Of a stretch of 64,000 bases of DNA, positions 4,088 to 9,073 are shown one piece after another. Origin of the DNA: Candidatus Salinicoccus stercoripullorum (GTDB lineage Bacteria; Bacillota; Bacilli; Staphylococcales; Salinicoccaceae); assembly GCA_019113295.1 (NCBI GenBank), contig DXHR01000025.1, positions 159,812-223,811 on the forward strand. The letters are read 5' to 3'. The position numbers and the translations under genes were made by a program. The notes beneath the pieces were generated by a model, which worked only from the letters and a program-made list of their open reading frames with translations, was not told where the DNA came from and searched no databases. Position 1 is the stretch's first letter. Every line of letters begins with the position of its first letter.

Positions 4088-4121
4088 AAAAATCTAACCA
4101 CATGCAGACACATGTGGTTAG
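4088..4121 (-). terminator. Strong hairpin with T-run between ytxH-like and aroA
   Basis: Minus strand CTAACCACATG-TGTCTG-CATGTGGTTAGATTTTTT. Confidence 0.75.
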
Positions 4122-5266: not shown

Positions 5267-6565
5267 TCATGAAAGCAGTTCAGTGAAACGTTTCTCATAC
5301 TTTTGAATGTCCCCGGCCCCCATGAATATGATGACAGCCTCTGTATGGTTATTCAGACGTTCCAGGTCTCTTTCATCCAGAAGCTCCGCGTCAGGTATCA
5401 GATTGACAAGGTCCCTGCTCGACAGTCTGCCTGACTCTTCTCTGGCGGAACCGAATATATCCACTATATATGACTTGTCGGCTTCTGAGAGTGCCTCGGC
5501 AAAATCATCAAGAAACGTCTCAGTCCTGGAAAAAGTATGCGGTTGGAATACGGTCACTATTTCCCTTCCCCCGTATTTTTTACGGGCGGTCTCCAGCGTT
5601 GCACTGATTTCCCTCGGATGATGGGCGTAATCATCGACTATGACCATGCCGTTCAGGAACGTCTCACTGAACCTGCGCTTGACTCCACCGAAAGTCATGA
5701 ACGCGTCTTTGATATTTTCCATATCAAGCTTCTCCAGATAGCATACCGTAATGACAGCCAGTGAATTCAGTATATGGTGGTCGCCGTGCATCGGTATGCT
5801 GAATCTGCCCATTTTTTCCTTGCCGATATAAACATCAAAATGTGTCTCTTTGGAGTTCGTTTCGATGTTTTCCGCCCTGACATCATTATTGCCGCCAATG
5901 CCATAGAACCAGACTGGCACATCCAGGTCCATACCGTGGACGTATTCGTCCCCGCCGTAGGCTATGACGCCTTTATTCACCTGTTTGGCCATGTCAGTGA
6001 AAGCGTCCACGACATCATCAATGCTCCTGAAATAATCAGGGTGGTCAAAATCTATATTTGTAATTATTGCGTAATCGGGATGATAGCTTAGAAAATGACG
6101 CTTGTATTCACAGGATTCGAAAGCAAAGTAATCACTGTTTTCAAGGCCGAATCCCGTGCCGTCCCCGATCAGGAACGTCGTCTCCACATCACCGTTCATG
6201 ACATGGCTGAGCAGACCCGTTGTAGAAGTTTTTCCGTGGGATCCTGTTACAGCAATGGATGTATACCTGCTCATGAAGTCAGCCAGGAAAATATGATACC
6301 TGACGACAGAGTAGCCTGATTCAAGTGCTTTTTTTATTTCAGGATGGTCATCTTTGAAGGCATTGCCTGCAATATAGGTGAATCCGTCCACTATATTATT
6401 CTCGTCAAAATCCAGTATTTTTATGCCTTTGTCCCTCAGCTGGTGTTCAGTAAAGACTTCGCTCCCAATATCAGACCCCTGGACTTCATGTCCAAGATCA
6501 TGAAGCACCTGGGCAAGTGCACTCATCCCTGCGCCCTTAATCCCTATAAAATGATATTTTTCCAC
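5267..6565 (-). CDS. murC: UDP-N-acetylmuramate--L-alanine ligase
   Basis: [15 protein letters not shown] and [14 protein letters not shown] motifs. Confidence 0.96.
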
Positions 6566-6593: not shown

Positions 6594-8477
6594 TCATCCT
6601 CCGATATGCTTCAGATGGGAGAAGACTCTTTGTTTTGAATCATGAGGCAGCACGGCACCATTCACACGGAGCGCTTTGTTCGATGTCGGAATCTGGATCA
6701 GCATGTCATTGCCGTCCATCAGTGTCTCACTGCCTTCAATGATATTGGATTTTTCATCTCTGAATGAAATGCGGGTCTGCATCATCTGCAGCCATTCAAA
6801 ACGGATATTGACATCTGTTCGTGTGTGTTTCATGATCAGATGGATACCCAGCGGTTTCCCTTTTTTCAGCACCTGTACAATTGTTCTGACAACATCCGGG
6901 TTATTGCTTTCAAAGAGTTCGGAAAGATCATCGATGACAACCGCAATCACACTTTTCCGCGATTCATAGCTGACCCTTTGATTAAAGCTGTTCAGGTTTC
7001 TGACATGGGCCCTCCTGAACTGATTATGCCTGTCATTAAGTTCCTTGAACAGACCGCTCAGTACATCCGGGTCCATCACGGATTTTTTAGGCTGGAACAG
7101 ATGGGGCAGACTTTTATAATCTTCATAATGATTTTTGTCCGATGCAATCAGAATTCTGAATTCATTCGGGTTATGATTCATCATCAGTGAAGTGAGTATA
7201 TTATCGATGACATTCGAAGAATCAATCTCATTATTGCCGTATATCAGCGTATGGCCCGCTTTTTGAAGTTCATAGCTGAATATCTTATCATCAACAGTCT
7301 TTCCAACTACAAACTTGAAATCATTTTTGCGCAGCTTAAGGCTGCTCGAAGAAAACACTTTGCTGAAAGGAATATGAATCGGGTCCTTCAGCGGGAATTC
7401 GATTCCTATATTGCTCGTGCCTATGATCGGTGCAATGATCCTGAAGCTGTCAAACGGCAGATTCGGACCAAGATGCTCCCTAAGCCGGGCGATGTTGCTC
7501 AGTCTAAATGTCCGGTCCAGCTTAATTCCGAAACGGCCTATTATTCCGTTTGTTTTATAGTCAAATATTTCCGCCGGAATACCTATGGCTTCAAAAGCTC
7601 CGATTACCTGTCCGGAAAGTGTTCCGTCTGCTTCGCCGTAATCGGCTGTCAGATCACTGCCGAGCATATGTATCGAAGGCATCGTATATTTCGGGCCCTG
7701 CCGCTTCGTTTCAATCTTACGGCTATCCAGCCGTTTTTTCTTATCATATGGTGTCATGATGACATTGTAAGGAGAAGTCGTTCCCCGGGATGTTTTCTCC
7801 ACAGGAGTTTCCTGTACGGTCCCAGTGTCTTCGTTTTCAGCCGTTTCCTGTTCGTGCCTGATGGGTGCAGGCTGTTTTCCCTTCAGATTATACGGGTCAT
7901 CATAGCGTGCCTTTTCACGTGCTTCGCGCTTTCTGCGCTCCTCAAGGCGCTTCTGTTCCTTTTTGGCGCGCAGAAGCCTTTCACGCTTCAATCCCTCTAT
8001 GATCGGAGATATATATCCCTGTTCCCTGATTCCATCATCTTTTTTATCGGCCTCGATATAGGAGAGTTCCTCTCTGGAAAGTTCCTCCTTTTTTGTGCCG
8101 TGGATTGCAGAAATCAAAGGTGAGGCTCCGGGCAGCGGTTTCTGCCTGATGGGGCCGCTGAGCCCATCTTCATCAGGTTCTTCATGCTTTTTTGTGCCGT
8201 GGACTGCAGAGGGGATGTCCCTTGCTTTTGTAATTCTGAAACTGGAATCCTTCTTCTCCGGTTTTTTCGTCTCCTCAAAGAGAGTCCGTCTCTGTTCCCT
8301 TCTGATGAATGAGTCTGAATCATCTTCATCATTCACGATTTCACTCCGATGCGATTCTCCATCATTCTTTTCATCATCAAGTTCCAAAGGGAATCGGAAG
8401 CGTTCCCTGTAGCTTTTTTCATCTTCAGCTTCTCTGTTGAACTGCCTTCTCCTTCTCGATCTATCCATATGAACCAC
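6594..8477 (-). CDS. SftA/YtpT-position FtsK/SpoIIIE-family protein with degenerate motor domain and no gamma domain
   Basis: Located between murC and ytpR as in Bacillus sftA (ytpT). Similarity to the FtsK motor ([61 protein letters not shown]) but Walker A lost; ends at FSHLKHIGG. Confidence 0.8.
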
Positions 8478-8479
8478 CT

Positions 8480-9073
8480 TTATTTAACTTCAAACGGCCG
8501 AGCCACTTCATAACTGTCGTCCAGGACATAGATACCCTTTGCGCCGTCATCTTCAAGATTCAATTCTTTTCTTGAACAAATCATGCCTGTTGATTCCACA
8601 CCGCGCAGTGTGGAAGGTTTTATATACAGACCATCCGGCATTACCGCACCCACTTTGGCCACTACGACATGTTGTCCGGCATCAACATTCGGAGCGCCGC
8701 ATACAATCTGAAGCACTTCATCCCCAACATCCACTTTTGTCACATTCAGCTTGTCGGCATCCGGATGCTTAGTCTTTTCCAGCACTTTCCCCACTACAAA
8801 TTTCGGAGATATATCAAAGTCTATCTCATCCTCGCCGTATTCTTCGAGAACTTTGTTAATCTCACCGACAATATCCTCTGTGGGTTCGATATTGACCCCT
8901 TCGCGCATGCTGATTTTCTTCGAAGCTTTGAAGATATTCAGTCCGATGACCTCCATGCCATCCTTTATGACAGTCAGGTCATCGTGATATTCATATGAAG
9001 GTGATTCCGCTTTTCTGATTGTCACAAGCAGAACATCTCCAACATGTTCATTATTGTATGTCAGTTTCATCAT
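8480..9073 (-). CDS. ytpR: YtpR-like tRNA-binding (EMAP/OB-fold) protein
   Basis: [51 protein letters not shown]; start set at internal Met by homology and position. Confidence 0.88.

Follow-up and report, generated by a model that had tools for sequence, protein, structure and literature searches.

The window, a stretch of 64,000 nucleotides from a Salinicoccus genome (closest named relatives S. sediminis, 93% identity, and S. carnicancri, 92%), encodes an orthologue of SftA (the gene named ftsK in Staphylococcus aureus) that has near certainly lost the function of a DNA-pump motor. The motor has gone, yet the protein, hereafter pseudo-SftA, is kept under strong selection across a whole family of salt-loving bacteria related to Staphylococcus, which suggests a second, non-pumping job at the division site. 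Our preferred reading, to which we give a probability of about 0.6, is that pseudo-SftA is a conserved pseudo-translocase that serves the division site as an adaptor independent of ATP, possibly in secreting a Sle1-like amidase at the septum, and leaves pumping to SpoIIIE. The adaptor role is one that we infer; the evidence presented below would fit a structural role. The case bears on what SftA does in Bacilli beyond the work of SpoIIIE, and on how far the division role of FtsK needs pumping.

Identity, locus and fold

An earlier note on this DNA described an intact ORF in the SftA position, between murC and ytpR. This is what we find, with both neighbours identified by family matches (Table 1), and the motif regions it quoted occur in the sequence exactly as quoted. 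Its length of 627 codons holds when counted from GTG, as residues are counted throughout; the strand, which was not given, is minus, and a start at the ATG at 8468, yielding 624 aa, is likelier because the Shine-Dalgarno sequence AAAGGTGG overlaps the GTG start picked by the ORF finder (8468-8477). The stop codon of ytpR abuts this Shine-Dalgarno sequence, which suggests that the two genes may be translationally coupled. A strong terminator-like hairpin (12 pairs and then a T run) lies on the minus strand at 4094-4121, downstream of the genes located after murC.

Table 1. Features of the pseudo-SftA gene and its neighbours (positions within the window)
Feature	Position	Strand	Basis
murC, downstream neighbour	5267..6565	-	TIGR01082, 399.8 bits
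pseudo-SftA ORF	6594..8477	-	Pfam FtsK_SpoIIIE and FtsK_alpha
Beta (RecA-like) domain, catalytically degenerate	6597..7367	-	PF01580, Foldseek FtsK motors
DNA loop I deletion site (FRDEKS; SSxxDSR segment shortened)	6747..6764	-	gap in 30/30 clade copies, 0/47 intact homologues
DNA loop II region, basic contacts not retained	6786..6824	-	K643 equivalent
Arginine-finger position, Lys541 (R620 of P. aeruginosa FtsK)	6855..6857	-	Lys 30/30 vs Arg 47/47
Walker B position, Asp516-Asp517 in place of Asp-Glu	6927..6932	-	clade residues
Former Walker A, GNNEIDSS in place of GATGSGKS (residues 414-421)	7215..7238	-	0/30 clade copies vs 47/47 intact homologues
FtsK alpha domain (residues 281-370)	7368..7637	-	PF17854, AF2 core model
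N-terminal tail, basic, mostly disordered	7638..8468	-	AF2 pLDDT <50 over most
NVIM motif (residues 238-241)	7755..7766	-	motif counts
IIEGLKRER motif (residues 159-167), common to neighbouring family only	7977..8003	-	motif counts
PSAVHG motif (residues 89-94); PSAIYG / PSPIYG in intact SftA	8196..8213	-	motif counts
RFRFP motif (residues 26-30), common to intact SftA	8388..8402	-	motif counts
ytpR, upstream neighbour	8480..9073	-	tRNA_bind

Pfam assigns pseudo-SftA to FtsK_SpoIIIE (E=2.6e-11, 43.8 bits against a cut-off of 24) and FtsK_alpha (E=3.1e-7) and gives no match to the gamma domain, and the protein matches FtsK in the PDB (2iuu, E=6.4e-23). An AlphaFold model of the core (residues 283-627) reached pLDDT 90.6 and pTM 0.90 from an alignment that contained intact homologues, a bias toward the FtsK fold; its best PDB matches in Foldseek were all FtsK motors (E ~1e-27), with TMq up to 0.90 (6t8b; rmsd 2.9). 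When the full-length protein was modelled from pseudo copies alone, an ordered core and a disordered tail were obtained, and FtsK motors were again the best match. Given the Pfam, 2iuu and structural matches, the resemblance to FtsK is not due to chance, and the AlphaFold comparison proposed in the earlier note predicts that the FtsK alpha-beta fold is kept. The gene order ytpR - sftA - murC and the position of the protein in the tree, with SftA rather than with SpoIIIE, identify it as an SftA orthologue. A type VII secretion ATPase (EssC/EccC) was considered and rejected, as NCBIfam EssC scored 55.6 bits against a cut-off of 778.4 and the locus also speaks against it.

Loss of the motor elements

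We read 30 full-length clade copies, from separate genomes in 6 genera, against 47 intact homologues, comprising intact SftA of the neighbouring family (15) and of other Bacilli (12) together with 20 SpoIIIE. The earlier note had reported a Walker A region without GKS/T and a missing gamma domain, and none of the 30 copies has an intact Walker A or a gamma domain. The gamma pattern GYxRA (GYNRA motif) is found in 0/30 copies versus 47/47 intact homologues, the pseudo-SftA ORF stops after the motor, and neither Walker A nor a gamma domain was found elsewhere within that ORF. The Walker B position, at which the note had seen an unusual sequence, reads DD in 27 copies, DN in 2 and DE in only 1 (DE in all 47 intact homologues), and the SSxxDSR segment of loop I is shortened in every copy. 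The loss is wider than Walker A and gamma, extending to the arginine finger, the Walker B Glu and DNA loops I and II. The arginine-finger role is that of R620 in P. aeruginosa FtsK (PMC7321959), and the DNA loop contacts, loop II included, are taken from the same source. In loop II, the K643 equivalent is Lys in none of the 30 copies and Gln in 26, while the R632 equivalent is still Arg in 14. Of the properties of a working motor, pseudo-SftA therefore has the fold and lacks Walker A, Walker B, the arginine finger, the basic loops I and II and gamma. The absence from all 30 copies of motor residues present in all 47 intact homologues supports the earlier proposal that ATP-driven DNA pumping has been lost.

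The former P-loop varies in sequence among the 30 copies, with no conserved Lys or Ser/Thr, as would be expected if nucleotide were no longer bound. Such variability is unexpected for a nucleotide site and makes it highly improbable that pseudo-SftA is a non-canonical ATPase binding or hydrolysing nucleotide with other residues, despite the retained fold, the conserved Walker B Asp516 and the equally conserved Lys in place of the arginine finger. The loss of both DNA-contacting loops and of the gamma domain similarly counts against a protein that has kept DNA binding but not pumping and serves as a nucleoid tether or as a septal factor of the nucleoid-occlusion type. The strongly basic N-terminus (RSRRRR) and an invariant core segment of the RRAHVRN type would suit such a factor, but basic N-termini may equally bind membrane or protein, and we consider this explanation improbable.

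Distribution, selection and history

A search of 33 genomes of the family, from 6 genera, found a pseudo-SftA homologue in every one. Outside the 30 full-length copies are two genomes with a search match or cut contig only (G010 and G019) and one with a 243-aa fragment (G018), which likewise lacks Walker A. Wherever contigs extend far enough, the gene lies between ytpR and murC, in agreement with the intact flanking order noted earlier. In a neighbouring family of the order, which we take to be Staphylococcaceae proper, the same-locus homologue (~885-1350 aa) is intact in all 15 copies read, and the SftA of other Bacilli is intact at the same locus in 12/12. The degenerate P-loop, which the earlier note proposed to look for in sister species, is thus shared by orthologues throughout the family, with no intact Walker A in any of the 30 copies; a correction to the note is that the loss is a single event of the whole family, orthologues in the neighbouring family being intact. 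Outside the family, the best matches listed from incomplete samples of 130 genomes of the order and 301 of the class included no further short, dead copy. In another family of the same order (f4, perhaps Gemellaceae), most genomes have one FtsK/SpoIIIE match each, as though they had lost the SftA paralogue entirely.

In a tree of 77 cores built by maximum likelihood, the pseudo copies form one clade with support of 100/100 and a very long stem. Read without a root, its order runs SpoIIIE, other SftA, neighbouring-family SftA, pseudo clade, the attachment point of the last being approximate owing to the long stem and long-branch effects; the locus and the shared N-terminal motifs agree with a placement near neighbouring-family SftA. 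On this evidence, the motor was lost once, in the family ancestor, on one long branch that was followed by strong constraint. The copy of genus g2 (L053) has evolved far faster, with a terminal branch of 1.76 changes per site, and has kept the locus and the degenerate motor.

Pairwise dN/dS (Nei-Gojobori) between pseudo-SftA and its counterparts in four Salinicoccus species was 0.093-0.144 for the whole protein and 0.047-0.084 for the beta domain, the latter near the 0.039-0.056 of murC; ytpR gave 0.056-0.164, and neither murC nor ytpR has a value at the most distant species, where dS is near saturation. These ratios, far from the value near 1 that the earlier note had named as an outcome against its reading, indicate strong purifying selection that includes the dead motor. 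Sequencing error or local decay is ruled out by the 30 full-length copies from separate genomes without Walker A or gamma, and by dN/dS. Pseudo-SftA does evolve faster than its neighbours (cross-genus identity of 37-50% versus 72-80% for murC), as a decaying pseudogene might, but with dN/dS of ~0.1, a frame open in every full-length copy across 6 genera and a core of constant length with 60 conserved positions, decay is scarcely credible and in practice refuted. The earlier view that this is no ordinary frameshifted pseudogene is thereby upheld. The 60 core positions are at least 97% conserved within the clade, and 9 of them are fixed to a residue unlike that of active motors (for example R>K541, G>N310 and P>G311), while 92 motor-invariant positions vary in the pseudo clade. 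In this pattern, one set of constraints has been lost and another gained, which is not decay.

N-terminal motifs and a possible adaptor role

The tail carries four motifs whose patterns were written after inspection of the alignment, so that the counts are a description of conservation rather than an independent test: F.FP is found in 29/30 pseudo copies, 15/15 neighbouring-family copies and 10/12 other Bacilli, PS.I.G in 30/30, 15/15 and 8/12, I(V/I)..I.RER in 25/30, 15/15 and 0/12, and NV.M in 12/30, 15/15 and 12/12, with 0/20 SpoIIIE for each. Shuffled tails yield almost no matches (~0 expected for PS.I.G). The motifs of the SftA N-terminus may be docking motifs, and they offer specific targets for testing. 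The MSWF/MSWL start of intact SftA (15/15 in the neighbouring family, 11/12 in other Bacilli) is found in 0/30 pseudo copies, and since this N-terminus has been lost, recruitment of pseudo-SftA may differ from that of intact SftA. We also observed F.FP, PS[AP]I.G and NV.M in the intact SftA of many Bacilli (L091-L102, L040-L056) and not in SpoIIIE.

Sequence and model show that all the parts that bind ATP, couple its hydrolysis, grip DNA and orient on it were lost in the family ancestor. Under the adaptor reading, the disordered tail would dock on Z-ring proteins, much as B. subtilis SftA is recruited by SepF and FtsA, while the dead core would form a platform for protein binding or oligomerising. 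A likely client route would be secretion at the septum, together with trigger factor, of a Sle1-like LysM-CHAP amidase, after the example of S. aureus FtsK, and DNA pumping would be done by SpoIIIE alone. Candidate partners are encoded in these genomes: SepF in 33/33 of the family and, in the genome of the window, trigger factor and a LysM-LysM-CHAP protein (302 aa, signal-like start; L088 1423-2331, G000:C26), which resembles the plan of the Sle1 amidase and is a possible client. As proteins of all three kinds (SepF, trigger factor, CHAP) occur widely, their presence lends weak support. According to PMC11790237, SepF and FtsA recruit B. subtilis SftA to the Z-ring. PMC12755775 reports that S. 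aureus FtsK, trigger factor and the amidase Sle1 form a complex, a non-motor role, and together with PMC12272431 it describes a need for FtsK in Sle1 level and septal secretion.

The search for an intact FtsK/SpoIIIE elsewhere in the genome that the earlier note had proposed recovered, on another contig, an 806-aa SpoIIIE-type motor that has all three domains (alpha, beta, gamma) as well as the motifs GATGSGKS and VVIIDELADLM; SpoIIIE was likewise intact in 11/11 relatives sampled within the family. In S. aureus, one of FtsK and SpoIIIE suffices for segregation (PMC9733580), and the loss of one pump would therefore be tolerable. The main rival to the adaptor model also involves SpoIIIE: the dead protein might join SpoIIIE rings, or form an adjacent dead ring, and so tune or anchor the active motor. 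The retained alpha-beta fold, the presence of SpoIIIE in all relatives sampled and the tolerance of FtsK/SpoIIIE rings for non-consecutive inactive subunits (PMC4728128) are in keeping with such a regulatory subunit. However, SpoIIIE is only ~28% identical to pseudo-SftA over the core, the N-terminal motifs are absent from SpoIIIE and point to other partners, and the altered arginine finger and loops would poison adjacent sites, leaving this explanation unlikely.

A bolder form of the adaptor model, which we advance tentatively and at somewhat below even odds, is that pseudo-SftA is a natural separation-of-function allele, stripped of DNA translocation family-wide and keeping the division role alone. 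The conserved work of this paralogue would then be ATP-independent scaffolding through the N-terminal motifs (F.FP, PS.I.G) and the dead core, for example as a link from the Z-ring to the export of an amidase that splits the septum. The family allows pumping and division roles to be separated by comparison and simple knock-outs, and annotation by name (DNA translocase FtsK) would be incorrect for all of its members.

Among known systems, S. aureus FtsK (SAUSA300_1687, number from PMC9733580) is taken, from its murC/ytpR context, as the same locus and orthologue as the intact neighbouring-family copies, which share their N-terminal motifs with pseudo-SftA. Unlike pseudo-SftA, those copies have Walker A, the arginine finger, the DNA loops and gamma intact, a longer tail and the MSWF start. 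B. subtilis SftA (YtpS/YtpT) agrees with it in gene position and domain plan but is an intact translocase with gamma; the F.FP, PS.I.G and NV.M motifs were read in the SftA of other Bacilli, among whose genomes B. subtilis itself was not identified. With SpoIIIE and the E. coli and P. aeruginosa FtsK motors pseudo-SftA shares the alpha-beta fold, while lacking intact motor residues, DNA loops, membrane segments and gamma. Our search of the open literature, with subscription journals outside its scope, found no earlier description of such a pseudo-FtsK, and a stand-alone, family-wide dead SftA appears to be new. Degenerate FtsK-like domains inside EccC/EssC of type VII secretion are already known, and these too have shed their ATPase motifs while retaining a part that is structural or regulatory (PMC11154593). 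They differ in that their dead domains sit beside an active ATPase in one protein, whereas pseudo-SftA is dead as a whole stand-alone protein.
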